Source: a virus. Taken from it: 20,205 bases of DNA. The notes below the pieces were generated by a model. That model made no database searches. It was given only the letters and a program-made list of their open reading frames with translations, and was not told the DNA's origin. Both the position numbers and the translations under genes were made by a program. Of this stretch, positions 5,113-19,818 are shown piece by piece. The stretch is from IMG/VR virus record IMGVR_UViG_3300042914_001479, positions 1-20,205 of that record. The stretch is one strand, 5' to 3'. Every line of letters begins with the position of its first letter. Position 1 is the stretch's first letter.

Positions 5113-5123
5113 TATTTATTTAG
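5113..5123 (-). promoter_or_regulatory. candidate T4-type late promoter before the prohead core genes
   Basis: The minus strand reads CTAAATAAATA in the 69-nt gap between gp20 and the core protein. It contains both a CTAAATA and an AATAAATA element, close to the T4 late TATAAATA -10 box. The start of the core gene is 20 nt downstream, with the ribosome site between. AT-rich boxes are easy to find by chance, but this one lies in a gap and is doubled. Confidence 0.45.
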
Positions 5124-9657: not shown

Positions 9658-11307
9658 TCACCTAACAGGATCGTCGCCCCAATTCCAAGCAGTTCCGGTG
9701 CTATCCGTGAAGTTTTGTGGTTCTCCGCCATCGTCTATGAATCCAAACGGGGTCATTTCTTCCTCTAAATTTTTCATTTGGTCTTCGTACAGGTCACGCC
9801 GAATATCGCTGCCCGTGATATCTTTAAAATATGCCTGTGTGGTAAGCCACCCAAACAGCACCAGAGTCATAACCAAGTCGTCGTGATGGTTTTCTTCTGC
9901 CTCGAAAGAATCGCCCTTGGCAACAAACGAACACAACTCGTCCACCACATTAAAGTCTTCAACAATTAGTTTGGAGTCTTCAAGCAGATTTTTCAGAATG
10001 GAGCAGCCTATTCGTTTCACTGCACCGGATGTCTTTACGCCCTTCATGGACGATCCGCCGCGACCGAATCCACCGTTCACCACCTGTCCCTTGCGCCCTT
10101 GCATCTGCACATAAATGATGTTGTCGTACTCCAATTCATCATGCAGGATGTCTGCAACCTGTTGCCCAATGTCATTGATTTCTATCAACACATACGCATT
10201 GTTGTACTGCCGTGCTATGGGATAGATGGCATTGGGGTACAACATGGGCGGGAGTTCGTTGTTCCTGAAGGTGGCAGCAACCCGATACGGCATCTGCGAC
10301 ACATCAATCACGGAGTATGCGTGGTAGTCCTGACCAACGCCTCGGGAGGTATCAACCACTATGACATACTTGTGGTTAGGAAGCGGACGAGCGTACACAC
10401 GCAACCCTTCTCCATTGGAAAATTCCGGGGTTCGATATGCCATGCACTTGAGTTTTTCTGGATGGACAAGGGTGTGAACCGATCCCAAGAATTCGCATTC
10501 AAACTCTGTTCGGAACTGCTCTTCCGATGTGTTTGAGATGGTCTGCTTTTTCCACTCGTCATCACGACCGGGCACATCGCTCCAATGCACCTCTATTGGC
10601 ACATACTCGTTTTTTCCTTCTTCTCCCAGTCGCTTGTTGGCATTCACCCACAGGCGGTAAAACATATTCAAGCCCTTGGGGGTGGACACGATGATGACCT
10701 TGGTTTCCTTGCCGCTTGTGATCGTGGGGTACACCGATGAGAAGAACTCTTCTGCGACATTCTGCGGCACATACGCAAACTCGTCCAACATAATGCAGTT
10801 AAACGATCCACCACGAACAGCGGACGACGATGTTGCTGCGGCAAGCACCTTGGAGCCGTTCTCCAACACGATTGAACCCTTGTTCCACTCCACCACACCC
10901 TGCTGCAACCACAGTGGCAAGTACTCGTAGGCAAGTTTCAGACGACCGAGCAGTTCACGGGCAGTAGCCAGTTTGTTGGCAAGAATGGCTACGCTCATGC
11001 TCTGGTTGAAAAGGATGTAGTGGAGCAAAGACGCAACCACTGTAGTGGACTTGCCGCTCTGACGGGGAAGTTTGGCAATCACGAATCGGTTGTTGTGTAT
11101 CTTTCGAACAATATCCTCTTGAAAATCGTATGGCTCAAAAGGAACCAAGCCCTTGTCCAACGACACGATCTTCACATAATTCTTGATGAAGTACAGGGGG
11201 TCTTGGGAACACTTCACATACTCCTCAATCTGCTTGGGCGTGAAATTGATGTTCACTCCCGCTGCCTTCAGGTTGGAATTTCCCAAATAACTTTCGCTTT
11301 TGTTCAT
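9658..11307 (-). CDS. gp17: terminase large subunit, packaging ATPase/nuclease (gp17-like)
   Basis: The protein is 549 aa; T4 gp17 is 610 aa. The ATPase domain shows Walker A PRQSGKST (81-88, with Lys86) and Walker B CIMLDEFAYV (171-180, with Asp175 and Glu176). The coupling motif is IIVSTPKGLNMFYRLW (205-220). The nuclease domain shows IVVDTSRGVGQDYHAYSVID (316-335, with Asp319), VLIEINDIGQQ (373-383, with Glu376) and ENHHDDLVMTLVLF (472-485, with Asp476 and Asp477). These correspond to the T4 D401/E458/D542 metal site. The protein cuts concatemers and pumps DNA through the gp20 portal. Its ATG overlaps the preceding small gene's stop (ATGA), a 4-nt coupling. In T4, gp16 directly precedes gp17; here two small genes intervene. 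Confidence 0.98.
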   Translation of the reverse strand: MNKSESYLGNSNLKAAGVNINFTPKQIEEYVKCSQDPLYFIKNYVKIVSLDKGLVPFEPYDFQEDIVRKIHNNRFVIAKLPRQSGKSTTVVASLLHYILFNQSMSVAILANKLATARELLGRLKLAYEYLPLWLQQGVVEWNKGSIVLENGSKVLAAATSSSAVRGGSFNCIMLDEFAYVPQNVAEEFFSSVYPTITSGKETKVIIVSTPKGLNMFYRLWVNANKRLGEEGKNEYVPIEVHWSDVPGRDDEWKKQTISNTSEEQFRTEFECEFLGSVHTLVHPEKLKCMAYRTPEFSNGEGLRVYARPLPNHKYVIVVDTSRGVGQDYHAYSVIDVSQMPYRVAATFRNNELPPMLYPNAIYPIARQYNNAYVLIEINDIGQQVADILHDELEYDNIIYVQMQGRKGQVVNGGFGRGGSSMKGVKTSGAVKRIGCSILKNLLEDSKLIVEDFNVVDELCSFVAKGDSFEAEENHHDDLVMTLVLFGWLTTQAYFKDITGSDIRRDLYEDQMKNLEEEMTPFGFIDDGGEPQNFTDSTGTAWNWGDDPVR

Positions 11308-11612
11308 GGGGATTCCACCTTTCCAAGAATCACACCTTTGTATTTCAAAGTGAACGGCGCACCAACAGCAAGAACAGCATTTGTCTTTTCCGTTGGACTG
11401 TACTCAACAATCTTGCAGTAATCATGTTCCACGCTTTCACGGGTGATTCCCCCTTTGCACGATGCACACAGGGACGAATCGTATATCCGTTTTGCTCTGG
11501 TATACCACCCAAAAAGCGCACTTGGCGCACGGCAAATTCCTGTGCGGGAGTCTTCTCCTGCGTACAGGTGCTTCAACAAATCAAGGGGAGATTCGAAAAT
11601 CAGTTCGTCCAT
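11304..11612 (-). CDS. small four-cysteine protein of unknown function between terminase genes
   Basis: The protein is 102 aa from the ATG at 11610-11612, with GGTGGG about 8 nt upstream. A longer reading begins at 11729, but its extra 39 codons overlap the upstream membrane-protein gene in another frame and have no good ribosome site. The chosen start overlaps that gene by 13 nt. The stop overlaps gp17 (ATGA). Cysteines at 27, 49, 52 and 66, including LCASC, could form a small zinc-binding site, but spacing and the lack of other hallmarks make this tentative. No family recognised. Tight coupling on both sides argues for a real gene co-expressed with the terminase. Confidence 0.68.
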   Translation of the reverse strand: MDELIFESPLDLLKHLYAGEDSRTGICRAPSALFGWYTRAKRIYDSSLCASCKGGITRESVEHDYCKIVEYSPTEKTNAVLAVGAPFTLKYKGVILGKVESP

Positions 11613-11944
11613 CTGATCACCCACCGAAAAACATAAAATGACAACAACCCACCCCCGTACACAACTGGAATCTGCCACACGCAACCAAACAGCAGAGAAA
11701 CCCCCGCTGCAATCCACACCCCAAAGCAAACAGGACAGGAGAACAGTTTCACGAAGAAACCGGGACGGTGCGTAAGCATGAAATCGCTGTACTGCAACTG
11801 CGGATCGTGTTGCTTGAAATCCAAGTATTCACGAACCCGCATGGGAACACACACAAAAGGAATACGAGAACCGTACTCGTAGACGGCATTTGTGCCGTAC
11901 AGAATCCAAAGCAAAAAAGCAGTCCACGCTAATGCCAAAACCAT
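11600..11944 (-). CDS. small membrane protein with CPVC motif, unknown function
   Basis: The protein is 114 aa and starts after a near-perfect GGAGGTGA ribosome site, 4 nt from the ATG. Hydrophobic segments at about 3-22, 74-90 and 92-111 suggest three membrane helices. A polar linker of about 50 residues lies between the first and second helices. SCPVCFGVW (69-77) places a CxxC just before the second helix, resembling the C-P-x-C-x-G-x-W pattern of DUF1360-type small membrane proteins; that family link is uncertain. The linker contains many aromatic and charged residues. It lies between gp16 and gp17, overlaps the next gene by 13 nt and has a possible late promoter upstream. A role in packaging is not implied by the sequence; host-membrane modification or lysis-related functions are other options. 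Confidence 0.75.
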   Translation of the reverse strand: MVLALAWTAFLLWILYGTNAVYEYGSRIPFVCVPMRVREYLDFKQHDPQLQYSDFMLTHRPGFFVKLFSCPVCFGVWIAAGVSLLFGCVWQIPVVYGGGLLSFYVFRWVIRWTN

Positions 11945-11961
11945 GAGTTCACCTCCAGCAG

Positions 11962-11969
11962 TATTTATT
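11962..11969 (-). promoter_or_regulatory. candidate late promoter before the membrane protein/gp17 group
   Basis: AATAAATA on the minus strand, one mismatch from the T4 late box, overlaps the gp16 stop codon and lies 17 nt before the next ATG. A start about 6 nt further on would give a leader that begins at or just before the GGAGGTGA ribosome site. Because it overlaps a TAA stop it could be coincidental. Confidence 0.35.
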
Positions 11970-12453
11970 CGGATGCCGGATCGACAAATGCCTTGTTCGT
12001 GGAACGGGCACTGTTGATGATGTCCTGCAATTCTCGGGTTGATCCCACATAAATGGCATTGTTCGTGGTGTTGTTCGTCGTGGTCTTCGTGTCTTCTTTT
12101 CGTATTGCCTTCATCTGATCGTGCAGGCTCAACAGATCACGATTGGTTTCAGATAGTGTCTTTATCATCTGTGCCACCACCTCATACGCTCGGGGAGAAT
12201 CGCCTTCCTGTGCCACTGCAAGCACACCGTCAAGGGCATTCTTGCCTGCGTCAACCAGTTCACGCAGATTTCCCCGCACGGTGTCGTAGTCGTGCTTCAG
12301 GTCACGGGCAAGCCCCTCTTCAGTAAGGGGAGCAGACGGTATCCTGACAACGGGCATACGCTGATCAGATTCGGACTTCAGGATTTCGCTGCCAGCCGAC
12401 TCCGTTGGCGGCAGTCCGAGTGCTGTTTCAATATTGGAAAAACTGTCAGCCAT
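11965..12453 (-). CDS. gp16: terminase small subunit (gp16-like)
   Basis: The protein is 162 aa; T4 gp16 is 164 aa. The central helical core, LARDLKHDYDTVRGNLRELV, then DAGKNALDGVLAVAQEGDSP and RAYEVVAQMIKTLSETNRDL (about residues 49-108), matches the T4 pattern 'DFDxxRRTMKDLMxKGxEALEGLMxVAxExxHPRAFEVAAxMIKxLSDxNKDLL'. The C-terminal part is Thr/Asn-rich (TKTTTNNTTNNAIYVG) and ends in a short acidic tail. It forms an oligomeric ring that recognises viral DNA and regulates gp17. Its start overlaps the gp15 end by 8 nt, and GGGAGC lies upstream. Confidence 0.93.
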   Translation of the reverse strand: MADSFSNIETALGLPPTESAGSEILKSESDQRMPVVRIPSAPLTEEGLARDLKHDYDTVRGNLRELVDAGKNALDGVLAVAQEGDSPRAYEVVAQMIKTLSETNRDLLSLHDQMKAIRKEDTKTTTNNTTNNAIYVGSTRELQDIINSARSTNKAFVDPASE

Positions 12454-13318
12454 AGAATGCTCCCATGCTCTGTGTTACACCCGAAGAATCAAACCACCCA
12501 ACAGTGACCCCGGCTGCAAGCGTGGTTCCGCTGTGGTATTCGAATATCTTGGCATACGGATCGTAGTTGTACTTGCTTGAACTTGCACCGCTTGGGCCAG
12601 AGATTCCAATGAATATCTTTGCAAGGTCTGCTGCTGTTGCGCCCGATCCCGTGTATCCGGCAGTGTAGCCGCTGTCGTAATACGACATGTCCAAGAAACG
12701 GGGAACCACCTTCCTGATCTCGCTGTAGGTCTTTGTTGGGCCAAAGATGTAGGTCTTCATGGTGAAGTTCAGCGTGAATATGATGGAACGCCGCGTTTGA
12801 AAGTCTCCCTCGTATTCTTCCTCCGATGTCACGGAATTCAAGTAGATGGGAACATCCACCTTTCGGTTCACATCATCGAAATTCATGGTGGTCACGAATT
12901 CAGGCGCAAAGTACGGCAGAATCTGCTCTACTATCTGCAAACCATCGTCCATGTTGCGGGTATAGATGTACAATCCGAAATCTATGTTGTACGGAACCTC
13001 CGCAAAGGTGTACTTCACCGCTGCTGTCTGCGTGTCGCGGACAATATTTTTCTGTAGGCTGTTGCGCTTGCGGGTTGGATCGTATGCAAATCCCGTGATC
13101 TCAAATGCCATTCGTGGCAGCGTGATTTGCATGGGGTTCTGCAAGTACGGATCGCCTGCCAAACGAACCTTGTACTTTTCCTTTGGAGCGTAGGCAATGG
13201 GCACTTCGATGTATTTTGTGCCTGCGGACTCTTGGCGAGATATGGTTACCTGATTGAATATGGAACCAAATGCCACCACCATCTTGCGTATGGAGCCGTT
13301 GTAGAATTGGGTAAACAT
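12446..13318 (-). CDS. gp15: tail terminator / proximal sheath stabiliser (gp15-like)
   Basis: The protein is 290 aa; T4 gp15 is 272 aa. The N-terminus FTQFYNGSIRKMVVAFGSIF (2-21), followed by NQVTISR, matches the family start 'F.YH.T.R.YV..FG.LF..I.I.R'. Later blocks KYIEVPIAYAPKEKYKVR, LPRMAFEITGFAYDPTRKRN and VPYNIDFGLYIYTRNMDDGL are typical of gp15. It caps the finished tail and joins it to the gp13/gp14 neck. The ATG overlaps the gp14 stop (TGATG), with GAGGGG upstream inside gp14. Confidence 0.95.
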   Translation of the reverse strand: MFTQFYNGSIRKMVVAFGSIFNQVTISRQESAGTKYIEVPIAYAPKEKYKVRLAGDPYLQNPMQITLPRMAFEITGFAYDPTRKRNSLQKNIVRDTQTAAVKYTFAEVPYNIDFGLYIYTRNMDDGLQIVEQILPYFAPEFVTTMNFDDVNRKVDVPIYLNSVTSEEEYEGDFQTRRSIIFTLNFTMKTYIFGPTKTYSEIRKVVPRFLDMSYYDSGYTAGYTGSGATAADLAKIFIGISGPSGASSSKYNYDPYAKIFEYHSGTTLAAGVTVGWFDSSGVTQSMGAFYG

Positions 13319-14208
13319 CAGTACAGCCCCTCGGAGAACGGATCTTTCTCGGTGAAATCGAAGATTTCGTCACGATTGGCTTCAAGATCAAGTGCTTCGT
13401 TGTCCTGTATTTTGGCATTGGTTGTGCGGATGTTGGTATCCGTAACTGCCGTAATGGGATACGATGCTGCACTTGTCTTGCCAACAATGGTGTCGCCCAC
13501 CTCAAACTTGCCGCTGCTGATGTTAACCGTAAGGTACTTGATCGGCGGATCGTCATTCGTGACCGTGTACGCATCAACATAACCTACCGCATGTGGACTG
13601 CTGACGCTTCCTGCGTACACTTCTTCTCCCTTCGTGTATGTGCCGCTTCCGCTGCCAAGGGTGAACCGTTTCTTGTAGGTGGCAACTGCCTGCACCACCG
13701 AATCCATGTCGCTTTCACCTGTGTCGATCTCTTCCTGCGTGTACTTGAAGGCTTCGCAATACAGTTTAAACGAATACCGTTGCCCCAATGGATAGAACGG
13801 ATTGTCGTGTTCCACAAACTTGATCTCAAACAGATTGTACGGATAGTCAAAATAAATCAGATCGCCTTCGCGTGGACGACCAAGATCACGAATGGACAAG
13901 TTGTGTCCCATGACTTCCAAGAATCGTCTTTTTGAAACAATGAATGTGCAGTTCTCGCGGATGTCTAACCCGAACCGCGTCATGTCGCTTTCGCCGTCAA
14001 ACCCTTCCGCATTCTCCATGTACATTTCAATCCGATTTGCATCATTGAAACGCGAGACTTCCTCACCAAATATCTTGTCGTCCTTCACCGTGTCCCGTGG
14101 AATGTACACCATTTCGTGACCGTGGATTTTTATTGCTTCCGTGGTCAGCGATTCCAAGAGAGCCTGCTCTCCCGTTACATTCCTGCGAAAATACGGGTTT
14201 ACTGCCAT
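13318..14208 (-). CDS. gp14: neck / head completion protein (gp14-like)
   Basis: The protein is 296 aa; T4 gp14 is 256 aa. N-terminal NPYFRRNVTGEQALLESLTT (4-23), GHEMVYIPRDTVKDDKIFGE (30-49) and FLEVMGHNLSIRDLGRPREG (96-115, then DLIYFDYP) are characteristic. Residues about 184-258 look like an inserted beta-rich module (YTKGEEVYAGSVSSPHAVGY, then KFEVGDTIVGKTSAASYPIT). The acidic C-terminus IFDFTEKDPFSEGLY resembles cyanophage-type gp14 tails. It joins gp13 to the portal to form the neck after packaging. The gene begins 3 nt after the gp13 stop, and AGGAT within the gp13 end serves as a modest ribosome site. Confidence 0.94.
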   Translation of the reverse strand: MAVNPYFRRNVTGEQALLESLTTEAIKIHGHEMVYIPRDTVKDDKIFGEEVSRFNDANRIEMYMENAEGFDGESDMTRFGLDIRENCTFIVSKRRFLEVMGHNLSIRDLGRPREGDLIYFDYPYNLFEIKFVEHDNPFYPLGQRYSFKLYCEAFKYTQEEIDTGESDMDSVVQAVATYKKRFTLGSGSGTYTKGEEVYAGSVSSPHAVGYVDAYTVTNDDPPIKYLTVNISSGKFEVGDTIVGKTSAASYPITAVTDTNIRTTNAKIQDNEALDLEANRDEIFDFTEKDPFSEGLY

Positions 14209-15028: not shown

Positions 15029-16516
15029 TCAAGCAAACACAGCAACACTGAAATTTCTTGGATTGTAGAACGCACCATCACCAGCACCTTTGAAAGCCAC
15101 ATAAAAAGTACTTGCCGTGGGTGCTACCCTAGCATTAGACGCATTGGTATGCAATTCCGCACAAAGTGTTCGATTGCTTCCATCCAACGATGTGCTTACA
15201 ACAACGGTATATGTTGCAGTAGGCATATTTGTAGTAAAATCAAACTTGAATACTCCTCTTGCGTTTTGAGTGACTGTTAGATTTTCACTATCTTGCGATA
15301 CTATAACTGCACTTGCTGCTGTAGAAGCAGCAGCACTATCGGTGTTTACAACCGCTGAAAACGCACGACAGGCATACATTGGAGCAGAACCGCTTGGAGT
15401 AAGGGTGGCATTTGCAACTTTCAGTGAGGATGCGATTTCCACTGAACCATCACCACGAATAAGCATTGCTGGTGCTGATCTAGCATCGGCAGTGAGTCCA
15501 GTTGAACGATTAATCAGATCAATGTTTAGTCTGTTGTTTGATGGGGTTGCGTTTCCTGTTCCTGTTGTCCACACCTTGAAGGCATTTGTGGAGTTCTGCG
15601 AGAACAGTATGCCACCCCAACCATCGTCATTGCTGTCTGATGTGAAATCCGCAGCGTAATCAGTTATGCTGCTATATCCTCCATCACCAACAGTAAGTGT
15701 TGCGGTTGGGTTTGTTGTTAAGATTCCAACATATCCGTTGGAGGTGATTCGCATCCGTTCCACATTTGAACTTCCGTCAGCAGGAGTGGTGAAAAATTTC
15801 AGGAATCCGCTGTGGTCAGTCGTGCCCTCGTTTCCTCCATCAATGTATCCGCCTGCAAGTGTGACACCGGATTGGGAATTCCGCGAACCAATACCAATTC
15901 GTCCGTATCGTTCAGCCGCAACCGAAGACCCGTCGTCCCATACGAAAATACCAGCACCTGTTCCACCAACCAGTAAACGATTGTATCCAAAAAAAGCACT
16001 ACCTGTCGGGAATACGCCCCTGTCGCTGATGGACACCGTGCCACGCACATCAAGTTTGGCTACGGGAGATGTTGTTCCAATTCCAATTTCACCATCAGCA
16101 GTCAACCGCATCTTCTCCACATGTCCGATGGCAAACATGAGATTGGTGGCAGTTGTGTTGTAACTCTCATTCAACACAATACCTTCGCTTGTTGCGGTCA
16201 CGAACAGTCTTGGGCGATAGTCCGATCCACTCGAATTGTTTGATATAAATGACGCAAGAGTGATTCCCGCTGTTGTAGCAGCGGTAACAGGCACAGTGCT
16301 TACCACGCTGAATACGGCATTACCCCCGCTTGGCTTAACTCCATTGTCTGAAACCCGAGAAGTTCCATCAACATGAAGGGTTGCAAGTGGACTTGAAGTT
16401 CCTATTCCTACAAGACCATCACTTCCCACTCGTACCCGCTGAGTAGCGTTGGTGGAAACAATCAGCGGATCGCTGTCGCTCTGTGGTTGGATGTTGCTTG
16501 CCTTTAGTGTACTCAT
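15029..16516 (-). CDS. tail fibre-like protein with VGIG repeats
   Basis: The protein is 495 aa. It shares the start MSTLKASNIQP and R(V/I)R(V/I)...G pattern with the paralogue at 18418-19818. A repeat of about 24 residues occurs three times, at about 26-49, 134-157 and 253-276: (E)(R/K)MR(I/L)T..G..(V/I)GI.T..P.A.L.V. This repeat is common in phage fibre shafts. The remaining sequence is Ser/Thr/Gly/Asn-rich with beta-strand patterning. The C-terminus (ARVAPTASTFYVAFKGAGDG and the rest) lacks an S74 chaperone and probably forms a distal beta domain. GGAGA lies upstream of the ATG. Virion attachment point and receptor are not known from sequence. Confidence 0.82.
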   Translation of the reverse strand: MSTLKASNIQPQSDSDPLIVSTNATQRVRVGSDGLVGIGTSSPLATLHVDGTSRVSDNGVKPSGGNAVFSVVSTVPVTAATTAGITLASFISNNSSGSDYRPRLFVTATSEGIVLNESYNTTATNLMFAIGHVEKMRLTADGEIGIGTTSPVAKLDVRGTVSISDRGVFPTGSAFFGYNRLLVGGTGAGIFVWDDGSSVAAERYGRIGIGSRNSQSGVTLAGGYIDGGNEGTTDHSGFLKFFTTPADGSSNVERMRITSNGYVGILTTNPTATLTVGDGGYSSITDYAADFTSDSNDDGWGGILFSQNSTNAFKVWTTGTGNATPSNNRLNIDLINRSTGLTADARSAPAMLIRGDGSVEIASSLKVANATLTPSGSAPMYACRAFSAVVNTDSAAASTAASAVIVSQDSENLTVTQNARGVFKFDFTTNMPTATYTVVVSTSLDGSNRTLCAELHTNASNARVAPTASTFYVAFKGAGDGAFYNPRNFSVAVFA

Positions 16517-16529
16517 CGTTTTCTCCGTG

Positions 16530-16826
16530 TCAGGTCAGCGATTGCAGTTCGTTACGCAGGGCAATTGCCTGTGTGTTCAGCCCGTCCAAGTATGCCGTGT
16601 CGCCCTCTGCAAGCGGACGAATGCGCCGTGCGTCAAGTGCTGCCAGTTCTGCTTTGATCTGTGCAATGCGTGGATTGGGGAGAGGGTCGGCAGGGAGTGG
16701 GGTATTTCCCGCTGCACACCACGCCAAGTACTGTGCATAGTCGGTGTTCAGTGGGTCGGTTGGAATCACTGCGCCGTCGTCTACGCGGAGAACATGAGTG
16801 GCACGATTGAATAATTTGTAGTTCAT
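16530..16826 (-). CDS. tail fibre assembly / tail chaperone-like small protein
   Basis: The protein is 98 aa from the ATG at 16824-16826, which has GAGGAA 6 nt upstream. An 11-codon longer reading would overlap the preceding fibre gene and has no support. The motif YAQYLAWCAAGNTPLPADPL (30-49), followed by a helix 'RIAQIKAELAALDARRIRPL' (53-72), is typical of small proteins next to tail fibres annotated as tail assembly chaperones or fibre assembly proteins. It lies directly after the receptor-binding-type fibre gene (10 nt gap) and 13 nt before the next fibre gene, so it probably helps fold or assemble one of them. Function is inferred from pattern and position. Confidence 0.7.
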   Translation of the reverse strand: MNYKLFNRATHVLRVDDGAVIPTDPLNTDYAQYLAWCAAGNTPLPADPLPNPRIAQIKAELAALDARRIRPLAEGDTAYLDGLNTQAIALRNELQSLT

Positions 16827-16836
16827 CGGGGGTTCC

Positions 16837-18408
16837 TCACAGTTCTGCTGAGTAGTCAAATCCAGCAGCCGTACTGTTGTTGAATTGGAAGGATCCTGTT
16901 GTAGTAACTGTTACATGCATAATATAGTTGTGGTTGGAGTACGCTTCTCCGTGTACTCCTGTTCCGCTTGACGCAGAACAGTTGCTGAATGCAAATGCTG
17001 CGGGGTTGTATCTTGTCATTGTTGGTATTGCTCTCATGGGACGGAGCAGGGTTAGTGTCTGCACTACTCCTGCTCCAGCAGCACCGTATCCCGCAAAGTT
17101 TTGGTAAATGTTTCTCTGAAAATATCGCTGACACAACGCCAGTTCTGTTTCATACGGACGGTGTTCAAACGGAGTGGCAACATTTCCAAGTTCCCACTGC
17201 ACACCAGTAATGTCCAAGTATCCGCCCGAGTATCCGGTTATTTGCACTCCTGTTCCGTCTGTGTACGGAGAATACGACAAATACACTCCATCACGGGTTA
17301 GCCATGTGTTTCGGGTTCCGTATCCAGATAGTCCTGAACCAAGATTGAAACCTAAATACGCAAATCCCCTAGAAGCAGTGTTGTCCACAAGAGTTGTAGG
17401 AGCAATATCATAAGTCCATCCCGTGCTAGTGGTGTCTCCGGGAATAGTTACAGTCTTGTACTCCCATGTGTCTGCGGAATTTATCGTGTACGGGAAAAGG
17501 TATGATCGGGTTCCGCTTGGATACGAACCTATTTGTCCCTCAAATGTTCCGGTTTGGTTGGAACGAACCCAAAATGACACGGTTGATGTTTTTGCAGTGG
17601 ATTTGCCGTAATCAAAATCCATTAGTGTGGACGCTTCAATAGGCTGAAAGAATGACGAAACTGATGTGTTTGCATACGAACCGCCTGCGACTCCACCCGC
17701 AGTGGCTCCGCTCAGAATGCGGCAGTAACGAGTAAATCCCTGTGGGGGTGAAACAGTCAAGCCGCCATAGAACTGGAATGTGATTCCCGGACTTCTTTGG
17801 AATTGCCATCTGTCGTATAGTTTAGAGGTGGTCGGGGAAGAAATACTTACAGGGCCTGTAGTTGGACCAAATCCGTTGATGTTTGGATTGGTGGTGGTTC
17901 CGCGCTGATTCACGATCATGCTGCCGTTAATGACACGGTTTCGGAACATGAACGGAGAAGCCATTACTGCTGTTCCACTCACCGAAACATTTCCGGCAAC
18001 GGAAAGTGAAGCACCGGGAGTAATAGTTCCTATTCCCACATTTCCTTCTTTGGTGATGGTCATGGCAGTTATACCATCATGTACAATATTTGATGATCCA
18101 GTAGACTCTCTGACCTGTGTTCTGTTGTTAACGACGAAATACAAACTTCCGTTGGTTTGCCCTTCCCCGGCAACAATCCAGTTCAAACCATTATTTCCTA
18201 ATTGCAGGTAATTCCAAGCAAGTTTGGAAGAATAACTCAATCCAATAGCACCATCTCCGTAACGAGCCATGAAATAATTTCCTGGTCCAACCGTAGCATT
18301 ACCCGAAATTGAAGCAGAACCACCCATGAAAGTGGTAACTGCATCAACAGTCACGGTTCCTGCGGTTGAGCCTACGGGTTCGATTCGGTTGGTCTTGATT
18401 GTACTCAT
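16837..18408 (-). CDS. tail fibre-like receptor-binding protein with beta-sandwich module
   Basis: The protein is 523 aa. The start MSTIKTNRIEPVGSTAG is shared with neighbouring fibre genes. A single NVGIGTITPGASLSVAG repeat lies at 123-139. From about 157 to 432 there is a well-known phage module: NRVINGSMIVNQRG (157-170), KLYDRWQF (196-203), TSTVSFWVRSNQTGTFEG (274-291), SADTWEYKTVTIPGDTTSTG (311-330), YLDITGVQWELGNVATPFEH (397-416) and RPYETELALCQRYFQRN (417-433). It is widespread in tail fibres and is thought to be a carbohydrate-binding-like beta-sandwich. The last about 90 residues form a separate tip. The gene is followed closely by a small assembly-type gene. AAGAGA lies upstream of the start. 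Receptor and position on the virion are unknown. Confidence 0.85.
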   Translation of the reverse strand: MSTIKTNRIEPVGSTAGTVTVDAVTTFMGGSASISGNATVGPGNYFMARYGDGAIGLSYSSKLAWNYLQLGNNGLNWIVAGEGQTNGSLYFVVNNRTQVRESTGSSNIVHDGITAMTITKEGNVGIGTITPGASLSVAGNVSVSGTAVMASPFMFRNRVINGSMIVNQRGTTTNPNINGFGPTTGPVSISSPTTSKLYDRWQFQRSPGITFQFYGGLTVSPPQGFTRYCRILSGATAGGVAGGSYANTSVSSFFQPIEASTLMDFDYGKSTAKTSTVSFWVRSNQTGTFEGQIGSYPSGTRSYLFPYTINSADTWEYKTVTIPGDTTSTGWTYDIAPTTLVDNTASRGFAYLGFNLGSGLSGYGTRNTWLTRDGVYLSYSPYTDGTGVQITGYSGGYLDITGVQWELGNVATPFEHRPYETELALCQRYFQRNIYQNFAGYGAAGAGVVQTLTLLRPMRAIPTMTRYNPAAFAFSNCSASSGTGVHGEAYSNHNYIMHVTVTTTGSFQFNNSTAAGFDYSAEL

Positions 18409-18417
18409 GGTGTTCTC

Positions 18418-19818
18418 TTATTTAGCCTTTAGTTCCGCGATTTCCGCTGCCTGTGCGTCCACGATGCCCTTGAGTTCCTGAACGGACTTCACCAATACTG
18501 CTATGATTGCGCGATCACTGTAGTTCTTGAATTTTTCTGCTGTTTCCGGTTCGGGTGATGCCTCGGGAATGACTGCTGCCACCTCTTGTGCCACAAATCC
18601 CAGTTCCTCGTATGGATGGGCAAAGGGTGAGTCATCGTTCCAGCGATAGTAGGTGGGCAACAGGCGGGAAACCTTGTCCAAACCGCTGTCAAGTGAGCGT
18701 GTTTTGGTCTTGTGGCGACCGTCTGATGCGCTTATAACTCCGGTGGAAGAGGTGGTGAGCGTTCCCGCTCCATATGAGTGAAATGTGATTGTTCCTGTTC
18801 TGGCTATGGTCATTTTAATTGTTTCGGCTGTGGTTGCCGTACCGCCGTTGTTCGTGAAGATGTTTATCTCTCCACCACCATTTGCACCACTTGACGGTGA
18901 AACGCAAGTGATTGCCGCTTTTATCTTGTTGTCATTTGCCTGACCTCCTGCCACAAAGAAAATTCGTCCAAATGTGGTGTTTGTCGTTATTGCAGATGAT
19001 GCCTTTGGGTTGTTTAGTTCTATGCGACCGTCTGCTGAGTCTGTATCGGTTGCTCGTCCAATCAAGGAAAGAACAGACGAATACTGTGTACTGCCTGTAT
19101 TATTCGTGTATGATTGCGGGGACATTCCACTAGTCAGTCCTATTCCAACCTGACCGTATTGGTCAATCCAAAATCGGTCAACATATGTTGATGGATGGGA
19201 TCCAAGTCTGCGATCAAGTATGCGAAACATCTTTACGGAATTGTTGGTCTGTGCCAAAATTCCCCAGTCCGCTCCATTCACATACTCATCTGTCAACCGG
19301 ATTTCTGCCTGCGTGTATCTTGGCCCACCATATACATGAAGTGGAGCAATACCAACAGTAGCACCAACCACAACGCTGCCACCAACAGGGTTCAGCGCAA
19401 GAGAGCGTTGTGTATTGTCTGAATTTTGCACTTGCAGCCAAGCAGCACTGACCCCGCTGTTCCCAAAAAACAGCGTAGTGTTTCCTGCACTGGCGCGAAT
19501 TGAGGCATTTGCCCGGTTTCTAGTGGTCGTGAATGTGTTGAGTTGCGGGTCAAGCAAACCAGAGTTTGACGCACTGACAACTTCCAAATCCACATTAGGC
19601 GTTCCGCTCACGGCAGAGCCAATAGCCAACTTGCCATTAAAGTTTGACGCACCACTGACCGTAAGCGAACCGCTGAATGTGCTGCTCACAGTGCTTGAAA
19701 CCGTCATCACGCCGCTTGGGGTGATACGAATGCGCTCGGTGTCTGCCGAGCCTGTCTTCAAGATCAGGTTGTTGGTTCCAAGTGTTGGTTGAATTGAATC
19801 AGACTTAATGGTACTCAT
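18418..19818 (-). CDS. tail fibre-like protein with C-terminal S74 intramolecular chaperone
   Basis: The protein is 466 aa. N-terminal MSTIKSDSIQP plus ERIRITPSG repeats the start of the paralogous fibre. The middle is beta-rich and contains GQVGIGLTS-type sequence. Residues about 363-466 match a peptidase S74 / endosialidase-type chaperone: SASDGRHKTK (363-372), LLPTYYRWND (386-395), YEELGFVAQEVAAVIPEA (403-420) and a final helix with SVQELKGIVDAQAAEIAELK. Ser365-Asp366 is the expected self-cleavage site that releases the chaperone after trimer folding. GAGGAA lies upstream of the ATG. The preceding partial fibre gene stops 9 nt before the start. Confidence 0.87.
   Translation of the reverse strand: MSTIKSDSIQPTLGTNNLILKTGSADTERIRITPSGVMTVSSTVSSTFSGSLTVSGASNFNGKLAIGSAVSGTPNVDLEVVSASNSGLLDPQLNTFTTTRNRANASIRASAGNTTLFFGNSGVSAAWLQVQNSDNTQRSLALNPVGGSVVVGATVGIAPLHVYGGPRYTQAEIRLTDEYVNGADWGILAQTNNSVKMFRILDRRLGSHPSTYVDRFWIDQYGQVGIGLTSGMSPQSYTNNTGSTQYSSVLSLIGRATDTDSADGRIELNNPKASSAITTNTTFGRIFFVAGGQANDNKIKAAITCVSPSSGANGGGEINIFTNNGGTATTAETIKMTIARTGTITFHSYGAGTLTTSSTGVISASDGRHKTKTRSLDSGLDKVSRLLPTYYRWNDDSPFAHPYEELGFVAQEVAAVIPEASPEPETAEKFKNYSDRAIIAVLVKSVQELKGIVDAQAAEIAELKAK
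18419..18425 (-). promoter_or_regulatory. possible late promoter element between fibre genes
   Basis: CTAAATA on the minus strand overlaps the last codons and stop of the S74 fibre gene and lies 10 nt before the next fibre ATG. The sequence identity to the boxes before gp13 and the core gene is notable. However, a transcript starting here would have almost no leader, and the match could be a by-product of a Lys-stop ending. Confidence 0.2.

Follow-up and report, generated by a model that had tools for sequence, protein, structure and literature searches.

Why would two small genes separate the terminase genes of a T4-like phage? The stretch analyzed here, called the window below, spans an IMG/VR record of 20,205 bases from end to end. 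Its minus strand reads in the T4-like order gp13/14-15-16-[two genes]-17-18-19-20-(small)-21-22-23, in which gp13, gp19, gp20, gp21, and gp22 were named by position and by eye. The original prediction placed two small genes between gp16 and gp17, and both are confirmed as minus-strand ORFs there. Gene 1 (11600..11944, minus strand) encodes a 114-aa three-helix membrane protein, apparently of a divergent DUF1360/phrog_781 type, and gene 2 (11304..11612, minus strand) encodes a 102-aa protein, predicted to be cytosolic, that has one conserved cysteine pair and belongs to no described family. The flanks were identified by Pfam and PHROGs: upstream lies gp16, the terminase small subunit (11965..12453, minus strand; PF11053; phrog_445, 7e-35), and downstream lies gp17, the terminase large subunit (9658..11307, minus strand; Terminase_6N/6C). 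The two terminase genes had been said to adjoin in T4, and in the T4 genome examined gp16 and gp17 overlap directly. Thus, genes 1 and 2 are an addition relative to T4. The proposed translational coupling could be read directly as a 13-nt overlap of the two genes (11600..11612, minus strand) and an ATGA in which the gene 2 stop overlaps the gp17 start (11304..11307, minus strand). Elsewhere in the window, three tail-fibre-like ORFs (15029-19818, minus strand) have common GIGTxxP repeats, and the last ends in a region that by eye is S74-intramolecular-chaperone-like.

A conserved gene pair at an insertion hot-spot

Small ORFs, one of which lacks a strong family match, might be spurious. When the window was compared with the relative L003, differences by codon position were 43/29/57 for gene 1 and 19/14/48 for gene 2, with dN/dS of ~0.24 and ~0.22, respectively. 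Both genes are under purifying selection and are protein-coding. The synonymous bias of the divergence, the conserved overlaps, and the recurrence in four lineages refute the reading as spurious ORFs, to which we assign next to no probability. Amino acid identity to L003 is 55% for gene 1, 71% for gene 2, 85% for gp16, and 96% for gp17, such that the pair diverges faster than the terminase genes around it.

Absence or breakage of the pair in close relatives would have counted against the prediction; it is instead kept together in three more T4-like lineages with the gene order unchanged, making four with the window. In L003/L004 (on the 63-kb contig G002) and in L132, the pair lies between gp16 and gp17 with overlapping ends; the overlap is 8 nt in L003 and exactly 13 nt, with a GTG start, in L132. 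Every contig that spans the pair site carries both genes, and two contigs from one sample (L002 and L012) each cover one end of it. The most distant relative, G003 (77.6 kb; gp17 55% identical), is arranged differently. There, gp16 and gp17 (11638-13766) overlap with nothing between, and the pair sits ~40 kb away at 53373-54030 with an 8-nt overlap, flanked by two ORFs that by eye resemble ribonucleotide reductase and metallopeptidase genes, and not at head genes. A profile built without G003 sequences retrieved the G003 membrane protein (E=5e-25), and the G003 partner was the top non-self match of ~11,900 ORFs at 12.4 bits (next, 7.2). Thus, the pair is a portable two-gene unit that is not tied to the gp16-gp17 junction.

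Outside these lineages, no homologue of either protein was accepted from INPHARED isolates by tblastn, and none was found in the bacterial genomes searched or in four complete Kyanoviridae/Llyrvirus genomes. One weak tblastn match, H1, runs antisense to SusC/SusD-type genes of bacteria and was discounted as a homologue. We conclude that genes 1 and 2 are a previously undescribed, real, and conserved gene pair. Two other features of the relatives were seen by eye: a 150-aa ORF with NUMOD3/homing-endonuclease-like repeats between gp14 and gp15 of L132 (reverse strand, 11837-12289), and a long run of ORFs resembling sugar- or glycosyl-transfer genes at ~27-43 kb of the T4-like contig G002 (L029/L030).

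Position between the terminase genes had been taken as meaningful, but it is not special. Published work on cyanophages and marine T4-like phages describes the gp16-gp17 region as a hot-spot for insertions (PMC3037559, PMC2984593), and this hyperplastic region resembles the window in having small genes between the terminase genes and differs in that its contents are unrelated to the window pair. Melnitz, for example, has an F5/8 type C gene annotated at the junction, and S-SKS1 has several genes there. Because the junction is a hot-spot, insertion there is ordinary and is no evidence for a packaging role, and in G003 the pair lies elsewhere altogether.

Expression signals point to late synthesis. 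A GGAGGT (11951..11956, minus strand) 6 nt before the gene 1 ATG is among the best ribosome sites in the window. The claim that it is the strongest stands only if the GGAGG core is weighted, as six other genes have 6-base matches in a different register (AAGGAG or TAAGGA). The heptamer ATAAATA is the core of the T4-type late promoter. It occurs only twice in the window, at 11962..11968 (minus strand), 17 nt before gene 1, and at 5113-5119 (minus strand), both times on the coding strand and 17 to 19 nt before a start. A copy also lies 16 nt before gene 1 in L003/G002 and is the only one in L003, and part of this conservation is forced because the heptamer shares the gp16 stop codon (TAA in the window) in both. 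L132 has no ATAAATA at a comparable distance before gene 1. In G003 and G002, ATAAATA is often found within ~45 nt of late-gene starts (group range, 9 to 45 nt), which supports a promoter element in the T4-like group. Sigma-70 promoter and Rfam searches yielded nothing useful. Judging from the promoter-like element, the pair is probably expressed late. Moreover, because the overlaps hold and ATAAATA precedes gene 1 in the window and in L003/G002, co-expression with gp17 is likely. To that extent the pair may be made with the packaging motor, as had been proposed, but the distant pair of G003 shows that it need not be made in one operon with the motor.

A DUF1360-like membrane protein and its cysteine-bearing partner

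Gene 1 had been described as a three-helix membrane protein with SCPVCFGVW, and the description is accurate. Hydropathy gives three transmembrane (TM) segments, and SCPVCFGVW is the window version of an S-C-x-x-C-F-G-x-W motif that is invariant in the four lineages. The CxxC of this motif (C70-P-V-C73, counting M1 as 1; codons at 11726..11737, minus strand) falls at what is predicted to be the cytoplasmic end of TM2. TM1 and TM2 are joined by a long loop with basic residues, the external loop has none, and by the positive-inside rule the protein would sit N-out, C-in in the inner membrane with the CxxC in the cytoplasm where TM2 begins. Eight DUF1360-like proteins were tested, and each has basic residues in the CxxC-bearing loop and none at its N-terminal end, which likewise argues that the CxxC faces the cytoplasm. 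Where it could be resolved, the predicted external loop of these proteins also lacks basic residues, except in L132, for which the scan sees four segments.

Gene 1 matches PF07098 (DUF1360) at 18.0 bits (E 0.003), under the Pfam gathering cut-off of 21 bits, as do its relatives in L132 (18.0 bits) and G003 (19.6 bits). The C-x2-C-x-(G/S)-x-W motif that DUF1360 carries at a TM start is present, and a match to phrog_781, a family with no curated cut-off, reaches E 3.4e-5 and is confined to 58 residues around the motif. Judged by these profiles, the gene 1 product is DUF1360-like, that is, a divergent relative of the DUF1360/phrog_781 group rather than a DUF1360 member, and it is not an orphan. 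Like gene 1, proteins of that group have ~80 to 120 aa, 2 to 3 TM segments, a basic cytoplasmic loop, and CxxC-x-(G/S)-x-W where TM2 begins, and they are often encoded inside a head or packaging module. Gene 1 differs in its longer TM1-TM2 loop, its site at the gp16-gp17 junction of a T4-like phage, and its dedicated small partner.

That partner, gene 2, was said to belong to no recognizable family, and searches of Pfam (nothing below E 0.1), PHROGs, NCBIfam, PADLOC, and PDB bear this out. The product is predicted to be cytosolic and mostly helical. All four cysteines attributed to it (C27, C49, C52, and C66) are present in the window, but only the C49/C52 pair is conserved. C49 is invariant over the four lineages and is followed by a second cysteine as CxxC or CxC (CASC, CGSC, CPAC, or CSC), such that C49-A-S-C52 (codons at 11457..11468, minus strand) is the sole pair with a counterpart in all four; no relative has C66, and G003 also lacks C27. 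AlphaFold2 single chains built from three-row family alignments scored pLDDT 60 and 63 with pTM <0.5, and in the low-confidence gene 2 model the cysteine pair sits in a loop between two helices. No interface between the two products was discernible in these weak models, which carry no weight in the argument, Foldseek found no match for the models of either family among viral models, and a PDB sequence search with the proteins of the pair found none either.

The original prediction suggested that both proteins share a membrane- or metal-linked function. The suggestion is plausible in that each protein has two conserved cysteines and both pairs are predicted to be cytoplasmic. A similar arrangement is found in the CD4/CD8-Lck zinc clasp, in which a membrane protein and a soluble protein, with two cysteines each, hold one zinc (PMC8005572). 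Two conserved cysteines per partner on the same side of the membrane are also what we find here, with the side assigned by the charge rule only. The likeness is one of chemistry, not of homology.

Cysteine-bearing neighbors of DUF1360-like genes are seen in several other phages. One to two genes upstream of the DUF1360-like gene, Atuin, Pumpernickel, DSL-LC01, and L065 encode a small protein whose longest conserved block is the invariant CGCGS(R/K)LR. These proteins, which have no PHROG match and among the actinophages are seen in one family, lie just before the portal, both in the large actinophages and in a lake phage (L180:3991-4311, L181:3457-3837, L182:4486-4929, and L065:5354-5716). In L063, L069, and L099, a CxxC gene overlaps the 3' end of the DUF1360-like gene; profile comparison of gene 2 with these small genes aligned the cysteine motif only and did not establish homology. 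Many DUF1360-like genes, such as that of AWGoat, have no cysteine-pair partner, and across families a C-x(1,2)-C neighbor was not above background (15% of small ORFs; P ~0.1-0.2). A general rule that DUF1360-like genes have cysteine-pair neighbors was therefore rejected, and the idea of a two-plus-two cysteine site is thereby confined to the window and CGCGSRL families. Separately, in L077, L073, L054, and L141, an overlapping CSSC...CxGC zinc-ribbon-like ORF follows the DUF1360-like gene ~550 nt from its start, and a protein with an EKFLDNPGCACHxPLYRK block is also encoded; no head genes were recognized nearby.

DUF1360-like genes beside portal and terminase genes

Where DUF1360-like genes lie in other phages is more informative than the terminase junction. 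An IMG/VR scan with the pattern L/F-x-C-x2-C-F-G-x-W, blind to context, matched at least 119 stretches, and among the matches listed ~18 DUF1360-like families, grouped by eye, could be read in context. The metagenomic portal, TerL, and protease genes were identified with PHROGs. The DUF1360-like gene lies directly before the portal in L058, L065, and L107 (phrog_776 portals), before or near a phrog_21 portal in L085, between TerL-portal and the head protease in L044, before TerS-TerL in L069, L099, and probably L063, and at the gp16-gp17 junction in the window group. Among the matches listed, 8 of the 18 families are thus at portal or terminase genes, and against an expectation of 8 to 15%, itself a guessed null applied to families grouped by eye, P is 4e-5 to 3e-3. 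Roughly half of the families surveyed among the matches listed are not at packaging genes.

Annotated isolates give the same picture. The DUF1360-like gene is upstream of the portal in all eight examined, directly in AWGoat, Pointis, Atuin, Pumpernickel, DSL-LC01, and LittleMunchkin and with one gene between in SadLad and Sunfish; the eight are not mutually independent because many have a common portal family. The Atuin and Pumpernickel genomes are 186 to 194 kb, and in Atuin and DSL-LC01 the link to the portal persists where the terminase lies several genes off. Moreover, PF07098/phrog_781 itself includes genes annotated as membrane proteins before the portal in Arthrobacter, Microbacterium, Curtobacterium, and Gordonia phages. 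The recurrence of DUF1360-like genes beside head-assembly genes in unrelated viruses suggests a role in building heads at the membrane, and this family link to portal genes is a stronger lead than the gp16-gp17 position.

A possible role in head assembly at the inner membrane

How might the pair contribute to a phage head? In T4, head assembly begins at the inner membrane with the gp20 portal and the chaperone gp40; the initiator requires gp40 for its assembly, and by the time the motor binds the prohead has already left the membrane (PMC9958956). By comparison, genes 1 and 2 may form one functional unit that is expressed late. The gene 1 product would be a three-TM inner-membrane protein whose long basic cytoplasmic loop ends in CxxC, the two cysteine pairs would come together on the cytoplasmic side, probably in a Zn(Cys)4 bridge by analogy with the zinc clasp, and the soluble gene 2 product would thereby be tethered to the membrane. 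The tethered complex could then help head assembly at the inner membrane as a dock or chaperone for the portal or for packaging intermediates, a part comparable to that of T4 gp40, to which it is unrelated. The steps of this model differ in strength. The two genes very probably act together. A role in head or portal assembly is a serious possibility that falls somewhat short of an even chance, and it is a more doubtful matter that the paired cysteines hold a metal between or within the two proteins. The combined reading, in which an inner-membrane anchor and a cytosolic partner are joined through their cysteine pairs and act in head assembly, with the metal detail left open, is offered tentatively as the best guess, at well below an even chance.

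The comparison with gp40 (PF11113, Phage_head_chap) is one of action. Gp40 is a chaperone needed by the membrane-bound gp20 portal initiator (PMC9958956), and its site of action would be similar, but it has no sequence match to gene 1, is not a three-TM CxxC protein, and its family is not among the Pfam matches of the gene 1 protein. PF11113 was found in T4, whereas G002, G003, G006, and four related complete cyanophage genomes were negative. Replacement of gp40 by DUF1360-like proteins in all marine T4-like phages was considered and rejected, as the cyanophages searched show neither, and the family is thus no general gp40 substitute. Together, the cyanophages that lack both and the G003 unit that lies far from head genes are the strongest evidence against a head-assembly role.

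The main rival to a role in head assembly is that the pair is an accessory cassette, a portable late membrane unit that changes the host envelope or blocks superinfection and is parked in a hot-spot, with terminase adjacency incidental. The status of the junction as a hot-spot (PMC3037559, PMC2984593) and the unrelated inserts in Melnitz and S-SKS1 are in its favor, as are the G003 pair, which sits beside unrelated genes while gp16 and gp17 touch, and the faster divergence of genes 1 and 2 than of gp16 and gp17. It leaves unexplained why DUF1360-like genes in unrelated phages are at portal or terminase genes above the rough expectation, and the pair resembles no PADLOC model. We regard a cassette of this kind as a substantial possibility that nonetheless falls well below even.

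Two further readings turn on the chemistry and topology of gene 1. The CxxC pairs could be a redox couple in which gene 1 relays electrons to or from gene 2 at the membrane, and the invariant CxxC of gene 1, the cysteine pair of gene 2, and the ribonucleotide-reductase-like ORF that adjoins the pair in G003 would fit. Thiol chemistry is quite unlikely, however, as both cysteine pairs are predicted to be cytoplasmic, the gene 2 pair varies between forms such as CASC and CSC in a way unusual for a dithiol active site, and neither Pfam, NCBIfam, nor PDB gave a thioredoxin-like match. Alternatively, gene 1 might encode a class-I-like holin or holin regulator with gene 2 as its soluble modulator, given three TM segments, an N-out/C-in topology, and ~110 residues. 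We consider this very unlikely: no holin family in Pfam, PHROGs, or NCBIfam matches, DUF1360-like genes of annotated isolates lie beside portal or terminase genes and not beside the endolysin, and holins are not known for a long loop that carries an invariant CxxC.

More broadly, DUF1360-like phage proteins might be a widespread and so far unrecognized class of membrane docking factors for the portal or packaging vertex, to which several lineages add a small cytosolic partner through a shared two-pair metal site and which take the place of gp40. We think a scheme of such breadth rather unlikely to hold in full. DUF1360 has received little attention, with one incidental mention in the paper library searched, and the association with portal genes provides a functional lead for the family. 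Because DUF1360-like genes lie beside the portal genes of many cultivable actinobacteriophages, that lead is testable by gene deletion. In this way it becomes possible to ask by experiment how head formation begins at the membrane in phages beyond T4, and whether a membrane factor is required for it.
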